Source of the DNA: a virus
Reading direction: 5' to 3' (one strand)
DNA: 24,272 bases
IMG/VR virus record: IMGVR_UViG_3300013099_000088
Location: 1 to 24,272 of that record
Below are positions 606 through 24,272 of the stretch, piece by piece. The notes under the pieces are model-generated. The model was not told the origin of the DNA. It saw only the letters and a list, made by a program, of their open reading frames with translations, and searched no databases. The stretch's first letter is position 1. The number at the start of each line of letters is the position of its first letter. Both the position numbers and the translations under genes were made by a program.

Positions 606-1409
606 ATGCAAGCTATAATTGAAAGCCAAAAGAAATGCACAAGATGTAATCAATATTTCACATTAACGTCTGAGTTTTGGTATAAAAATAAACTTAGTAA
701 AGATAGTTTCGCTTGGGTTTGCAAAGAATGCTCAAAAATTTACGTAAAAGTCAATTCGGATATTTTAAAGAAAAAATCTAAAGAACGAAGAGAAAGAAAA
801 AAAGATAAATTAAATGCTTACAGCAGGGGTTACAATCTTGAACATAAGAAAGAACTTTCAAAACTCAATAAAATATATCTTCAGTCTCCAGCTAAATATA
901 AAACATATGCCCATAAAATATCGTTTGCCGACAGAATTAATCAAGAAAAAAACGGGTCCCTACTCGCTTATTGTACATATTGTAATAAACCATTCCATCC
1001 TACAAATACGCAATGTAAAAATAGGGTAGCCGCCCTTCATAGTGAAATTGGATCAGAAAACAGGCTTTATTGCTCGACTGAATGTAAACTATCTTGTCCT
1101 GTATATAAAAAAATTAAACATCCCAACAGATATAAAAAAGCAAGCTCCAGGGAGACAAACCCAATTCTACGACAATTAGTATTTGAAAGAGACAAATGGA
1201 TTTGTCAAAAATGTGGATCGACAGGAATAGGAGTTACTTTGCACTGTCATCATATATTACCAGCGACTCAAAATCCAATGAATGCAAATGATCCAGATGT
1301 GTGTATGTGTGTTTGCAAATCATGCCACAAAGACATTCATAAACAAAATGGTTGTGGATATAACGATCTGAAATGTTACAGGGAAAATGGAAAAAGGGCA
1401 AATGGATAA
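606..1409 (+). CDS. HNH endonuclease with several zinc-finger knuckles (probable mobile homing-type gene)
   Basis: A 267-residue protein with ribosome site AAAGGAG five bases before the ATG. The C-terminal HNH domain shows Cys200-x-x-Cys203 and Cys237-x-x-Cys240 as zinc ligands, the histidine pair His215-His216 of the beta-beta-alpha-metal motif, asparagines at 226 and 228, and His241/His245 in the helix. A separate CxxC pair lies at Cys11/Cys14 with another near residue 38, followed by a long Lys/Arg-rich helical stretch and a middle cysteine cluster (about 120-165). Such proteins nick or cut double-stranded DNA. The gene is clearly richer in A and T than its neighbours and sits between two replication genes, ending eight bases inside the next gene, as free-standing phage HNH genes often do. 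A host-takeover or packaging-linked nuclease is possible but less likely, because packaging-linked HNH genes sit beside the terminase. Confidence 0.85.
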   Translation: MQAIIESQKKCTRCNQYFTLTSEFWYKNKLSKDSFAWVCKECSKIYVKVNSDILKKKSKERRERKKDKLNAYSRGYNLEHKKELSKLNKIYLQSPAKYKTYAHKISFADRINQEKNGSLLAYCTYCNKPFHPTNTQCKNRVAALHSEIGSENRLYCSTECKLSCPVYKKIKHPNRYKKASSRETNPILRQLVFERDKWICQKCGSTGIGVTLHCHHILPATQNPMNANDPDVCMCVCKSCHKDIHKQNGCGYNDLKCYRENGKRANG

Positions 1410-3516
1410 TATTAAAACGGAGTTGTCCTCATTTGGGCTTGATGTGACAAATATAATACCAGACGGCAATATTCATCGGTGTCATACTGCTGCTAAACGT
1501 AAAAAAAATTTGGATGGCTGGTACGTATGTCGGGACTTTAAAAACAGCTTTTGGTGTATTTACGGTTGCTGGATCAGGGGGGAACAAGGTAAATGCTCAA
1601 CCTTGAACGGGACCGGCACCGTCAACCATGAGGCATGGGAGAAATTAGAAGAACAACGGCAGATTGAAGCGATAATACGAGAGAAAGAGGGCAGGATTAG
1701 GGCTGAAAAGTATATCGCAGAATCCATTGATATTGATCAACCCCATGCCTACCTGGATAAAAAACAGATATCGACCTGCGGCACATTGAGAAATGGAAAT
1801 CTGATTGTCATCCCTCTTTATAATAAGGATGGGATCATCAGCAGCTACCAGACAATCAGCGAAACCGGCAGAAAACAATTCATGCCAGGTGGGATTGTGG
1901 GTGGGTGTTGTTATCCCATCCCTGGGAACGAAAAGGTTGTCTGTATTTGTGAAGGGTTTGCCACGGGTGCCAGCATCAACGCCGCAACCGGGCATAAAGT
2001 TCTGGTGGCTCTAAACGCTGGGAACATCGTTAAGGTTGCAAAGTCTGCCAAAGAACGGTTCCCCAATTCAGAGATATTGTTATGCTGTGATAACGACCAT
2101 TCCAAAGAGAAGAATGTGGGCCTTGAAACAGGGAAGAAGGTGGCGAAGGATTTGGGGCTTGCGTATGTCTATCCAACAGGTATTAAGGGGTCCGATTTTA
2201 ACGATATGGCTATTGAAAAGAGCATTGATATTGTAGCACAGAGTATCAATCAGCGGTTGGCCATCAATATGGTTACAATAGATGATGTTAATTCTTGTAG
2301 CAGAACACTGTATATTCCAAAAGAGGCCATCCCCGCCGGGCTAATCAGGGAGGGGGTTGAGGCTTCTGGTCAAGACATAATCCAATACACATTACCATTA
2401 ATTTTGACAGTTATTTCAAGGGCGATTGCCGGGAAAATTTGTTTTGCCGGGCATCATCCTAATATCTATAATATAAAAGTGGGAGGGACCAGCACCGGGA
2501 AATCAGAGACGGACAAACTTTTTAAGACCCATATGAATATCGAGAAGTTTTTCGGGTTAACTGATATGGCATCAGGTCCTGGACTGTTAAGAAGCATATC
2601 AGAGAATCCGTGTGGGTTAGGATTGTTTGACGAGGTTTCCAGTTTGTTTCAGCATTATGGCCAATCTGACCCGGTACGAGATGGCAAAATAAATATGCTA
2701 TTAGAACTATATTCTGCGTCGGGCGGGTATATCAAGAGAGTGTATGGGGATAGCCGGAACAGTATAGAAATAAACAATCCATGTTTTTCTCTTATCGGAA
2801 ATGCCACGCCAACCATCTTTGACACAATAAAAACAGAAGATTTTGAAACAGGTTTGATGCAGAGGTTTAATTTCTGGATGTATGAGGGTTTGATCCCACC
2901 TAAAAAGATATTCCATAAACCAGATGATATATTAAAGATAGAAGCCTTTATTCAACGGTTAAATGACATTGTGATGTCTAAGCCACCTCAAAGTGAGTTG
3001 GCGAATGCTATGGGTATCAGTTTTCCATTGTCTGCTTCAAAAGACGCTTTAATTCTTCTCCAGGAGTACAGCGATTCTATTATAGAGGCTGCTAATAACG
3101 AATCAGACGAGGGGAAAAAGGGTATAATCTCCAGGCAATATGAATTGTGTATTAAGTATGCGATGGGACACCATGCTTCTGTCGGGGATCTTTATATAGA
3201 TATGACATCTGCTGATTTTCAATTTGGTATTTTAATAGCCGGTCTTCTTAGTGATTGGAAATTAACTATTTTAGATAAACAGGTTGTGTCTGGAGAGTTC
3301 CATAAGAGTTGTGAGGTTTTTAAGCAGGCGATTGTGGCAAGCATGAAGGCCGGAAGAGGGAATCCAACCTTTGCGTACATGACTAGCAGAAGGACCATAT
3401 TAAAAAATTGGGATCAGAAGTATTCAAAGGAGGTTATTGAGGTGTTAAAAAAGCGCAAAGAGGTTGTCACACAAGAGATTGATGGGATAACCCGATATTA
3501 TTTGGTGAAGATATGA
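1402..3516 (+). CDS. Primase-helicase (zinc finger, TOPRIM and P-loop ATPase domains, C-terminal winged-helix-like domain)
   Basis: I start at ATG 1402, behind an AAAAAGGG site, giving 704 residues; an in-frame ATG at 1387 lacks a good site. Residues 20-70 carry scattered cysteines and aromatic residues of a primase-type zinc domain. Residues about 120-285 are a TOPRIM domain, with the acidic glutamate in CEGFATGAS (Glu184) and the metal-binding Asp230/Asp232 in CCDND. An ATPase follows: Walker A GGTSTGKS at 361-368, Walker B GLFDE with Asp410/Glu411, a sensor-like NATP and a probable arginine finger in GLMQRF. This resembles DUF927/DUF3987-type phage primase-helicases, which make primers and unwind DNA at the fork. 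Residues 636-704 form a compact domain that is repeated as a separate protein encoded at 3807-4058. In the related phage P4 alpha protein the C-terminal domain binds origin iterons, and repeat sequences lie just downstream here. Confidence 0.88.
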   Translation: MDNIKTELSSFGLDVTNIIPDGNIHRCHTAAKRKKNLDGWYVCRDFKNSFWCIYGCWIRGEQGKCSTLNGTGTVNHEAWEKLEEQRQIEAIIREKEGRIRAEKYIAESIDIDQPHAYLDKKQISTCGTLRNGNLIVIPLYNKDGIISSYQTISETGRKQFMPGGIVGGCCYPIPGNEKVVCICEGFATGASINAATGHKVLVALNAGNIVKVAKSAKERFPNSEILLCCDNDHSKEKNVGLETGKKVAKDLGLAYVYPTGIKGSDFNDMAIEKSIDIVAQSINQRLAINMVTIDDVNSCSRTLYIPKEAIPAGLIREGVEASGQDIIQYTLPLILTVISRAIAGKICFAGHHPNIYNIKVGGTSTGKSETDKLFKTHMNIEKFFGLTDMASGPGLLRSISENPCGLGLFDEVSSLFQHYGQSDPVRDGKINMLLELYSASGGYIKRVYGDSRNSIEINNPCFSLIGNATPTIFDTIKTEDFETGLMQRFNFWMYEGLIPPKKIFHKPDDILKIEAFIQRLNDIVMSKPPQSELANAMGISFPLSASKDALILLQEYSDSIIEAANNESDEGKKGIISRQYELCIKYAMGHHASVGDLYIDMTSADFQFGILIAGLLSDWKLTILDKQVVSGEFHKSCEVFKQAIVASMKAGRGNPTFAYMTSRRTILKNWDQKYSKEVIEVLKKRKEVVTQEIDGITRYYLVKI

Positions 3517-3532
3517 GGCCCATACAAAGGCA

Positions 3533-3635
3533 GTACAATCTCCGTACAAAATGGAAAAGTTTGTACGGAGATTTCAAGGTTTCCGTACAGGAAAAAAAAG
3601 TTTTGTACGTATTTTGTACTCAGTTTTGTACGGAG
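3533..3635. repeat. Cluster of GTAC-centred iterons (candidate replication origin or operator)
   Basis: GTAC occurs at 3533, 3544, 3563, 3585, 3605, 3616 and 3628, with spacings of 11, 19, 22, 20, 11 and 12 bases, close to one or two helical turns. The fullest unit is TTTTGTACGGAG: complete at 3624-3635, in reverse at 3540-3551, nearly complete at 3560-3570, and as the shorter TTTTGTAC at 3601 and 3612. A degenerate reverse copy lies at 3582-3592. The cluster is non-coding and begins 16 bases after the primase-helicase stop. Iterons beside a replication gene are typical of phage and plasmid origins; autoregulatory operators look the same. The seen part is the repeats; the function is inferred. 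Confidence 0.65.
3537..3573. repeat. Perfect 14-bp inverted repeat with 9-base spacer within the iteron cluster
   Basis: Positions 3537-3550 (AATCTCCGTACAAA) are the exact reverse complement of 3560-3573. The spacer is ATGGAAAAG. Two full-length iterons face each other here, which would suit a dimeric binding protein. As RNA it would fold into a strong hairpin, but no T-tract follows, so a standard intrinsic terminator is unlikely. Confidence 0.75.
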
Positions 3636-3663
3636 AAAAGATGGGGATAAATATAGTAATAAT

Positions 3664-3697
3664 AGGGGTTTATATATATATGTATATATATAAGTAC
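3664..3697. other. AT-only near-palindrome next to the iterons (candidate DNA unwinding element)
   Basis: From 3670 to 3693 the sequence is alternating T and A except for one G, with 11-base arms that are exact reverse complements around a single central mismatch. It is preceded by AGGGG and followed further on by a run of five C at about 3714-3719. A block this AT-rich melts easily. Lying about 30 bases from the iteron cluster it fits the unwinding element of an iteron origin. It could equally contain promoter -10 elements, for example TATAGT at 3652-3657. No function is proven by sequence alone. Confidence 0.45.
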
Positions 3698-3751
3698 AAG
3701 AATACAACACTATACCCCCAAACCTACATTTTTATATGTTTTCTGTGTGTG

Positions 3752-3782
3752 TGCCTTAACGCGTGCGCGTACGCACGAGGCA
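3752..3782. promoter_or_regulatory. GC-rich hairpin just before the small wHTH-like gene
   Basis: CGTGCG at 3762-3767 pairs with CGCACG at 3772-3777 across the four-base loop CGTA. TGCCT at 3752-3756 can pair with AGGCA at 3778-3782 around a one-sided bulge. The apex contains one more GTAC (3769-3772). It ends nine bases before the ribosome site of the gene at 3807, so it could be an operator, an mRNA leader hairpin or part of the origin. It stands out sharply from the AT-rich surroundings. Confidence 0.4.
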
Positions 3783-3806
3783 AGGCCAATTAAAAGGAGC
3801 TTAAAA

Positions 3807-4058
3807 ATGGAAGAAATGACATTTGTTCAAAAAATAATATTAGACAGTGACTGTGAATCTTTTAAACAAGCGATTATATCAAATTTAAGATCCGACCGGG
3901 AAGACCCAATATTCGAAGAGTTGGAAGCCTACTCATGGCGGGTGAACAGTTGGGAACCAGAATATGCACAGAAAATTATCAACGAATTAAAAACCCGGGG
4001 TGAAGTTATCACAAAAAAAATCAATGGATATCCCAGATATTTTTTGGTTAAAAGTTGA
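3807..4058 (+). CDS. Stand-alone paralogue of the primase-helicase C-terminal domain (winged-helix-like, 83 aa)
   Basis: The start is ATG 3807, six bases after the site AAAAGGAG; a longer frame from 3747 runs through the GC-rich hairpin and has no ribosome site. Residues 15-83 align without gaps to residues 636-704 of the primase-helicase encoded just upstream, with 26 of 69 identities by eye. Conserved blocks are CE.FKQAI, E(V)(I/V)T..I.G and RY(F/Y)LVK at the very C-terminus. The pattern of helices followed by a beta-hairpin-like end (EVITKKINGYPRYFLV) suggests a winged helix, so DNA binding is likely. Only 14 residues precede the domain, so the protein is the domain and little else. It probably binds the iterons between the two genes and acts on replication or on its own transcription. 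No protein of known function is recognised beyond this paralogy. Confidence 0.8.
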   Translation: MEEMTFVQKIILDSDCESFKQAIISNLRSDREDPIFEELEAYSWRVNSWEPEYAQKIINELKTRGEVITKKINGYPRYFLVKS

Positions 4059-4207: not shown

Positions 4208-4573
4208 ATGATTGAAACAGACCCGAACGGAATAGACACCCATGACCCAGGAGCTAAACTAGATGATGGTAAACTCCTTGCCGGTATCCTCCAGCAATGG
4301 CCTAGGGCACTAACTGCTGTTTTGGAAGTTGCAACATTTGGTGCAAAAAAATACAGCCGTGGAGGCTGGCAGCATGTACCAAACGGAGTAGAGCGCTACA
4401 CAGACGCAATGATCCGGCATCTACTTAAAGAACCATTAGAAACTGCGGACCCAGACTCAGGGTTGAGCCATGAAGTCCACGCCGCCTGGAATGCTTTATC
4501 GCGCCTGGAATTGATGCTACGAGAACAAGAACAGGAGCAGCGGAGGACCCCCAGGAGAGTCACTTCTATATGA
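4208..4573 (+). CDS. dATP/dGTP diphosphohydrolase, MazZ-like (all-alpha MazG-type NTP pyrophosphohydrolase)
   Basis: A 121-residue protein with site AAGGAG. Family hallmarks visible in order are GAKLDDGK (residues 15-22), E40 followed by FGAKKY (44-49), GGW (52-54), PNGVERYTDAMIRHL (58-72) and HEVHAAWNALSRLEL (88-102). This matches the phage family described as the dATP/dGTP diphosphohydrolase N-terminal domain, to which MazZ of the Z-genome vibriophage phiVC8 belongs. These enzymes remove pyrophosphate from purine deoxynucleoside triphosphates using Mg2+ held by acidic helices; in Z phages the dGMP feeds 2-aminoadenine synthesis. Stand-alone copies are also common in phages with no known base change, where they probably trim the nucleotide pool. 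No PurZ-like or DNA polymerase gene is in the window. It overlaps the next gene by four bases (ATGA). Confidence 0.8.
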   Translation: MIETDPNGIDTHDPGAKLDDGKLLAGILQQWPRALTAVLEVATFGAKKYSRGGWQHVPNGVERYTDAMIRHLLKEPLETADPDSGLSHEVHAAWNALSRLELMLREQEQEQRRTPRRVTSI

Positions 4574-4860
4574 TAGATGAAGAAAAATGCCTGTCATGTG
4601 GCTTACGGAAAACTGCGCTATGCGTTAATCCAGGCCGGTGCATCATCAATGGTTTCTCAATGTATCGGCCAGCTAAACCGTGGAAAAAATGCGAAAATAT
4701 TGAATGTGGTGCAGGCATGAGAACTATCAGAACAAAAAAAATGTCTGAGACAGTTGTTGAAACATATTACGAATGCCCTGTTTGTAGATTACAAGCGAAG
4801 GTGGTTCAGGAGTATATCAGAATCCACGTTAAACGACCCAAGGCTATGAAGACTAAATAA
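4570..4860 (+). CDS. Small protein with two four-cysteine zinc sites, function unknown
   Basis: Ninety-six residues, translationally coupled to the preceding gene through ATGA. Cys7, Cys10, Cys18 and Cys24 form a first cluster; Cys41, Cys46, Cys69 and Cys72 form a second, with the CPVC knuckle looking like a zinc ribbon. Between them lies a Lys/Arg-rich segment, and the C-terminus is strongly basic (HVKRPKAMKTK). The layout suggests a nucleic-acid-binding accessory or regulatory protein. I do not recognise a named family. It is the last gene before a hairpin terminator, so it probably closes the early or middle transcript that begins with the replication genes. Confidence 0.7.
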   Translation: MIDEEKCLSCGLRKTALCVNPGRCIINGFSMYRPAKPWKKCENIECGAGMRTIRTKKMSETVVETYYECPVCRLQAKVVQEYIRIHVKRPKAMKTK

Positions 4861-4881: not shown

Positions 4882-4917
4882 AAAGGGCCCCAGATTAATT
4901 TTTGGGGCCTTTCCCCT
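4882..4917 (+). terminator. Probable intrinsic terminator closing the replication module
   Basis: AAAGGGCCCC at 4882-4891 pairs with GGGGCCTTT at 4904-4912 (one bulged G), around an AT-rich loop, 21 bases after the stop of the zinc-ribbon gene. The following bases TTTCCCCTTTC are pyrimidine-rich but not a clean T-run, so the signal is moderate. Its position between two modules supports it. The rest of the gap up to 5033 holds only a small inverted repeat CACAC/GTGTG near 4938-4953 and no recognisable promoter. Confidence 0.55.
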
Positions 4918-23408: not shown

Positions 23409-24272
23409 ATGGCAGATTATAATGAAGCTGAATATGTGGATGTCGAGCCTGGATTTTTTGATAGAATAGATAATGATGACGATGCGGAATACATTGATGT
23501 TCCTGATGATTTTTTTGGTGAAGAACCGGAAAGCCCAGACAGCGATTTTATCCCCGGGGTAAAAAGAGGGATCGACCAGACTCAGGCCATGGGGTTTGGT
23601 GCTGTTGCTTTAGGTGCTTCTGCCATGGGCCTTGACTCCGTCAAAGATTGGGGCATGGAAGGATACCAGAGAAATATAGAAGAGGCCGGGGAGAACCCGA
23701 AGCAGCAGACGTTTAAGGATGTCTATACCGGAAAAGCAGGCGTGGGTGGTTCAATTGATTGGATACAGGGAACCCTTGGGGAACTTATTCCTTCCATGGT
23801 TGAGGCTGCCGTTGGTGCTGCAATTGGGTCTGCTATTGCTCCTGGTCCTGGTACCGGTGCTGGTGCGTTTGCCAGTAGAACTATTTTAAAAAAATCCATT
23901 GAAAAACTAACCAAAGAAACTATCGAAGCCCAAATAAAGAAGGGTGTCCTTAAGGCCGGTGCAACCGAGGCCGTTGAAGCACAAATCAAAAAACAGGTTA
24001 CAAAGCAAGCCCTTAAAAAACTTGGGGGAAAGGTTGGTATGGGGGCCGCAGTTCTTCCCATGGAATCTGGTGGAAATTATGCCGGTCTTTTGGAAGAAAA
24101 AGGTATAGACGCACCTGGTACTGCCTTATTCTTCGGGGCGCTGGCAACCTCTCTTGAATATGCCGGTGGTAACAGCCGTTTGATTGACACTTTTATTGAT
24201 GGGGTTTCTAAAGGAAATGGTAATATTGTAAAACGGGTTGCCAAAGAATTATTGACCAATGTTCCCGAAGAG
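23409..24272 (+). CDS. Large internal virion (ejection) protein 4, 3' end outside window
   Basis: ATG 23409 follows TTAAGGGAT; the frame stays open for 288 codons to the edge of the window. The first 45 residues are very acidic (YVDVEPGFFD, DVPDDFFGEE). Hydrophobic, small-residue segments follow at about 60-75 (MGFGAVALGASAMGL) and 123-155 (LGELIPSMVEAAVGAAIG ... PGPGTGAGAFA), then amphipathic Lys/Ala helices, and another at about 238-255 (ALFFGALATSLEYAGG). Phage proteins with this layout, including the MESGG.YAGLLEE phrase, are usually very long internal virion proteins that may carry a murein hydrolase or form the ejection channel. No hydrolase motif is seen in the part present. Confidence 0.65.
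   Translation, partial: MADYNEAEYVDVEPGFFDRIDNDDDAEYIDVPDDFFGEEPESPDSDFIPGVKRGIDQTQAMGFGAVALGASAMGLDSVKDWGMEGYQRNIEEAGENPKQQTFKDVYTGKAGVGGSIDWIQGTLGELIPSMVEAAVGAAIGSAIAPGPGTGAGAFASRTILKKSIEKLTKETIEAQIKKGVLKAGATEAVEAQIKKQVTKQALKKLGGKVGMGAAVLPMESGGNYAGLLEEKGIDAPGTALFFGALATSLEYAGGNSRLIDTFIDGVSKGNGNIVKRVAKELLTNVPEE

Follow-up and report, generated by a model that had tools for sequence, protein, structure and literature searches.

The alpha protein of phage P4 is a helicase-primase with a C-terminal origin-binding domain, accompanied by a small regulator, Cnr, which to our knowledge is not a copy of alpha's end domain. Copy control by Cnr is noted in PMC8628076. The Rep protein of SaPI and Cch2 of SCCmec use their C-terminal domain to recognise repeats situated directly 3' of their own gene (PMC7581432). 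A shorter, initiator-derived protein of plasmid pIGRK, RepR', acts as a negative regulator of the same replication system (PMC6854812). In Odn of phage ICP1, which is aimed at a satellite, a nuclease is fused to a DNA-binding domain copied from an initiator and ~42% identical to the RepA_N domain of the target (PMC8263062).

The locus described here lies in a window of 24,272 nucleotides (the whole stretch of DNA that was analysed, from virus record IMGVR_UViG_3300013099_000088), in which a small gene, P0001, follows the gene of a primase-helicase; judged by its sequence, its product is a free-standing, diverged paralogue of that enzyme's winged-helix tail (Table 1). As in the SaPI Rep and Cch2 systems, repeats and AT-rich DNA are found directly 3' of the helicase gene. 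However, those proteins are DUF927 or D5/Primase_Cterm helicases, whereas the window enzyme combines Toprim and DUF3987, and the sections of PMC7581432 drawn on here describe no separately encoded copy of their C-terminal domain. With RepR', P0001 would have in common that a piece of an initiator serves as a brake, but RepR' arises from an in-frame internal start within the initiator gene and derives from an ordinary plasmid Rep, whereas P0001 is a separate, diverged gene. The parallel with alpha and Cnr, drawn in the original prediction, is functional at best: Pfam and PHROG gave no convincing family match that would link P0001 to Cnr. Gene order and families are unlike those of the window.

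Table 1. Features of the primase-helicase locus and the small gene behind it (window coordinates).
Feature	Position	Strand	Basis
Parent primase-helicase	1387..3516 (likelier start 1402)	+	Pfam, PHROG, visible motifs, winged-helix model
Coding stretch of the duplicated C-terminal domain (last 69 residues)	3307..3513	+	alignment; 54-57% conserved in L093 and L094
Putative replication origin, nine GTAC-core boxes	3517..3785	.	box excess; conserved spacing
AT-rich tract in the origin-like region, then conserved GTAC...AATACAACACTA element	3647..3706	.	GC, DNA alignment
Small hairpin CGTGCG-CGTA-CGCACG	3762..3777	+	read directly; folds, z only -1.4
Shine-Dalgarno AAGGAG of P0001	3794..3799	+	read directly
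Free copy of the C-terminal domain, P0001, 83 aa	3807..4058	+	homology to primase tail; codon usage; ORF
Next gene, dATP/dGTP diphosphohydrolase N-terminal-type protein	4208..4573	+	Pfam PF18909 2.5e-23
Ogr/Delta-like zinc-finger protein	4570..4860	+	PF04606 4.2e-05, below cut-off
Strong terminator-like hairpin, after the Ogr-like gene	~4883-4914		-20.2 kcal/mol, z -3.2

The parent enzyme is composed of a Toprim_3 domain (residues ~185-279; Pfam 4.5e-10), a DUF3987 helicase-like ATPase (~394-597; 3.6e-10) and a C-terminal winged helix (~641-709); it matches DNA primase in PHROG (3.5e-50), and its catalytic motifs, Walker A GGTSTGKS and Toprim CEG/DND, are visibly intact. Its tail is numbered 641-709 of 709 when counted from the longest open frame (1387) and 636-704, as in the original prediction, when counted from the sixth residue of that frame (1402), the latter start being likelier because the primases of L093 and L094, 56% and 47% identical to the window primase, begin where the 704-residue version does. 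The tail family comprises six primases, those of the window and of loci L093, L094, L095, L208 and L209. A further match to the primase tail at 23409-24272 of the window (43 residues, E 0.02) was taken as chance. The gene preceding the primase (606-1409) overlaps the primase start; it begins with a Lar-like match and ends with an HNH endonuclease domain.

The gapless alignment reported in the original prediction, of P0001 residues 15-83 to the final 69 residues of the primase-helicase encoded upstream, with 26/69 identities, was reproduced together with all three of the conserved blocks named there. The claim that the helicase end domain also exists as a free copy is borne out by a Smith-Waterman score of 152, against a maximum of 65 among 2000 shuffles, and by the search of the 24 kb record, in which the primase C-terminus is the only other match to P0001 (E 1.6e-15, 38%). 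Weak similarity continues, with a four-residue deletion, to the Met of P0001. The small protein shares 34%-39% identity with the tail of its own parent, while the parent tail shares 54%-57% with those of its two nearest relatives, L093 and L094, which argues that P0001 is no recent duplicate unless it has evolved very fast. Its ATG lies eight bases downstream of AAGGAG, its frame has the best codon-usage score of the six (0.146, the phage's genes ranging from 0.01 to 0.28), and an open frame as long as 83 codons would arise by chance with a probability of ~0.001 at this composition. Eleven of the 21 residues invariant across the six enzyme tails are kept in P0001, compared with 17 of 62 at other positions. 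By these features P0001 reads as a real gene rather than debris. A PHROG search with P0001 gave no match, no family in Pfam or PHROG matched convincingly, and no close relatives were found in IMG/VR or among annotated phages.

The original prediction ascribed a winged-helix fold to the end domain and proposed that both segments be modelled. The model of the enzyme tail, built from five sequences (overall pLDDT 78, block means of 79-91 in the domain), retrieved mostly winged-helix proteins as its top Foldseek matches (probability ~0.95-1.0, E ~0.03), with AF1382, KAT6A and MarR and ArsR regulators among its nearest solved structures, and the tail is accordingly modelled as a winged helix, in agreement with that claim. 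The predicted order of elements, H-H-H-H-E-E, is the same in the enzyme tail and in P0001, the P0001 model being the weaker one (pLDDT 64); a common fold is also expected from sequence similarity at this level. Solved-structure neighbours of the P0001 model are not meaningful at that pLDDT of 64, and the viral fold library returned scattered winged-helix and some primase matches, none of them significant.

The two domains differ markedly in charge, a comparison chosen after seeing the data. Each of the six enzyme tails is basic (net +5 to +11, pI 9.6-10.1), whereas P0001 is net 0 across the matching stretch, with an overall pI of 5.0. Conservation among the closest enzymes is greatest in a second-helix segment, PTFAYMTxRxxxLKNW, which carries net +3 to +5 (+8 in L208); its counterpart in P0001, DPIFEELEAYSWRVNSW, carries net -5, so that on these values P0001 lacks a basic DNA-facing surface. 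Its third helix is neutral and its wing retains net +4. The suggestion that free domain and helicase have DNA sites in common and could compete at the origin, simply for the same boxes, is weakened by this shift of the segment from net +3 to +5 down to -5 and of the pI from 9.6-10.1 to 5.0. Many winged-helix regulators are acidic overall, and the loss of charge is therefore not decisive against DNA binding; it could equally reflect an unrelated new job taken on by P0001.

The repeats that the original prediction placed between the two genes are real: the stretch 3517-3806 contains nine GTAC boxes against 1.75 expected (P ~2e-4), the highest density in the entire window, and they are conserved in relatives. 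The boxes are positioned at 3533, 3544, 3563, 3585, 3605, 3616, 3628, 3694 and 3769. Gaps within the left cluster (11, 19, 22, 20, 11 and 12 bp) correspond to about one or two helical turns, and the remaining gaps of 66 and 75 bp span the AT-rich tract, which has a GC content of 0.17 across ~60 bp and is conserved in the DNA alignment. The 12-66-75 spacing recurs identically in L093, and that of L094 (12-53-88) has the same 153-bp total. GTAC boxes in excess, mostly helically spaced, characterise the window, L093, L094 and L209, whereas L208 and L095 show an excess of GAACA/TGTTC instead. The small hairpin listed in Table 1 overlaps the last GTAC box, just 5' of the ribosome-binding site of P0001. 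No sigma-70-like promoter above chance was detected upstream of P0001 in the window, and no structured RNA or tRNA was found in the window. Taken together, the density, spacing and conservation of the boxes make region 3517-3785 a likely replication origin, and we infer that the enzyme tail may be what reads them. A separate observation concerns L095 and L209, whose tails are 84% identical, yet whose post-primase repeats are GAACA/TGTTC and GTAC, respectively; this difference between such similar tails offers a natural way to test which repeats the tail recognises.

A search of related phages for the same pair of genes, as proposed originally, gave a divided answer: the pair was not found in L093, L094, L208 or L209, and a comparable arrangement exists in the lineage of PHROG 29311, described below. 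Among the six primases of the tail family the free copy was found only in the window, the search covering the whole records of L093, L094 and L095 and the locus DNA of L208 and L209; as all related loci are fragments, with L095 ending 257 bp past the primase gene, absence of the copy is not proof. In L208, inspection by eye places a diphosphohydrolase-like ORF directly 3' of the origin-like region with no free domain between them. This position of what looks like the window's next gene suggests that the copy was gained in the window lineage, and the free copy is likely a lineage-specific gain. In the best tree, P0001 and its own primase form a pair at a support of 70/81, other placings not being rejected (p-AU 0.14-0.30), and the P0001 branch is very long (4.6 changes per column). 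An insertion of one residue and the RY.LVK ending, common only to P0001 and its own primase, agree with that pairing, within alignments that are thin and a single genome carrying P0001, a 24 kb fragment. No member of the tail family was found in two bacterial genomes with distant primases.

The site after the origin-like region seems to take changing small genes. The ORFs found there in L093 (6487-6660), L094 (6511-6708) and L209 (6758-6913) are small, basic and mutually different, that of L209 resembling by eye a ribbon-helix-helix protein. They were considered as diverged copies of the free domain and rejected, as none of them (57, 65 and 51 aa, respectively) is similar to P0001.

A scan of DUF3987 loci for a second ORF resembling the tail of their own primase yielded three further cases, in L150, L155 and L158. 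The proteins, annotated as hypothetical, match the PHROG 29311 profile (1e-20 to 6e-30), which P0001 does not. Relatives in this family include gp46 of Pseudomonas phage Epa40 (Septimatrevirus), gp37 of FtMidnight and gp49 of RcTitan, together with proteins of Brenneria phage BREN6 and Variovorax phage VCLv11. Like P0001, they are separate genes carrying the tail of their own DUF3987 primase (E 1e-8 to 1e-13), in a less basic form (net -2 to +3, against +5 to +7 in the primase tail), and mostly located just 3' of strongly AT-rich DNA. They differ in their length (~205-235 aa), in an additional N-terminal region of ~110 aa, in forming their own clade, and in the distance of 0.6-3.9 kb from gene to primase. 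In a comparison of AT-rich DNA, also chosen after seeing the data, seven of the eight loci have the most AT-rich 60-mer of the interval (GC 0.05-0.13) placed 105-241 bp ahead of the PHROG 29311 gene start, and in these seven the 300 bp upstream of the gene rank in the lowest 1.4% of locus GC; in RcTitan, AT-rich DNA still precedes the gene though the primase is 3.9 kb distant. This DNA may serve a promoter, not an origin. By eye, TTGACA followed by a TATAAT-like hexamer, close to the promoter consensus, can be read 5' of the gene in L150, L158, L173, L174, L175 and L177, and words such as TTCAATCTGTATA and GTTGATTNTAAAGGA are shared near the AT-rich DNA in several of these loci.

PHROG 29311 proteins are generally closer to each other than to any primase, a pattern suggesting that they go back to a single old event. 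When the window tail family and the PHROG 29311/3022 tail were compared directly as profiles, the match was not significant, and PHROG 29311 is thus a parallel in arrangement: a second phage lineage reached a similar arrangement independently of the window. The L093 and L094 primases align with PHROG 3022 nearly to its end.

How might such a free domain act? P0001 is probably a regulator of replication. Our leading reading, held tentatively and at somewhat less than an even chance, is that P0001 modulates the primase-helicase in trans at the origin next to it, as a brake more likely than as a helper, working through the enzyme or through altered binding. Its gene is the first to follow the putative origin, where the protein would act on its own primase-helicase and most likely restrain initiation. 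It may do so through the enzyme, by entering mixed complexes on the tail domains, or alternatively by binding DNA weakly and in an altered manner rather than by filling the same boxes; the loss of the basic surface favours either route over box occupation. The same anatomy would suit a positive cofactor that loads or stabilises the primase-helicase at the origin, and P4 Cnr illustrates that a small protein can act through an initiator helicase. Four related loci with the same tail family and an origin-like region show no copy, however, so the free domain is not a generally required loader, and we regard a helping role as quite improbable.

Instead of touching the helicase directly, P0001 could be a local transcription regulator, binding the GTAC boxes (or only box 3769) to control its own operon. 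Its fold is typical of MarR/ArsR-like regulators, its wing has kept its positive charge, a GTAC box and hairpin immediately precede its ribosome-binding site, and it is the first in a run of three genes, followed by the diphosphohydrolase and the Ogr-like gene, that ends at a strong terminator-like hairpin; the PHROG 29311 gene, too, is by eye the first after a consensus-like promoter. This possibility, the main rival of the leading reading, deserves attention but is unlikely, given that the window has no sigma-70-like promoter above chance upstream, that the basic second-helix segment is lost, and that it leaves unexplained why a helicase tail was copied, twice. P0001 might also be a functionless remnant, expressed or not: the end of an earlier primase gene that module exchange or a partial duplication failed to remove. 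Its occurrence in one genome only, its very long branch of unsettled placing and the plain exchange of replication modules among terminase relatives would fit such an origin. It is nonetheless an account we rather doubt: 83 codons have stayed open at ~34% identity (chance ~0.001), with a ribosome-binding site, start and gene-like codon usage of their own and preferential retention of enzyme-invariant residues, P0001 is not followed by the second origin-like region that a duplicated or replaced tail-plus-origin unit would leave, and PHROG 29311 offers a parallel. Finally, the free domain could recognise the origin of another element and counter a competitor, as Odn does with its copy of the DNA-binding domain of the PLE initiator (PMC8263062). 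The strong divergence of P0001 from the enzyme tail and the varying box sequence among relatives (GTAC, or GAACA/TGTTC in L208 and L095) are compatible with this, but P0001 has no nuclease domain, has lost its basic surface and has no known competitor, which makes such a role very improbable.

Returning to the tentative reading of P0001 as a modulator of its own primase-helicase, a broader version may be formulated, in which phages at least twice freed the tail of a primase-helicase, shed its basic surface and kept it by the origin to set replication by pairing with the enzyme tails. We consider this generalisation a speculation that is probably too broad; if true, it would represent a general, undescribed replication control in phages with DUF3987 primases. 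The DUF3987 helicases form a large family in phage replication, on which little experimental work was found in the literature. The locus supplies for them an origin candidate with conserved box spacing and, in P0001, a possible regulator that descends from the enzyme, and the hypothetical proteins of PHROG 29311 occur in phages, including cultivated ones, in which the idea is testable.

Terminase relatives of the window (67%-85% identical) were considered as a source of the pair and set aside; they gave no primase match, and those that were read carry other replication genes, e.g., DnaB. Two observations made by eye concern terminase genes. In L010 (6293-7409) the TerS frame appears interrupted, with one ORF that starts TerS-like and runs on as a GIY-YIG-nuclease-like protein and a second that holds the TerS end, while in L011 (7206-8894) a 562-aa transposase-like ORF separates the small and large terminase genes. 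A conserved protein of ~100 aa (MKKLCDRCGSAS...) is encoded in L011 (5140-5445), L014 (7322-7627) and, on the minus strand, L093 (8146-8448), and connects this last, a primase relative, with the terminase relatives of the window.
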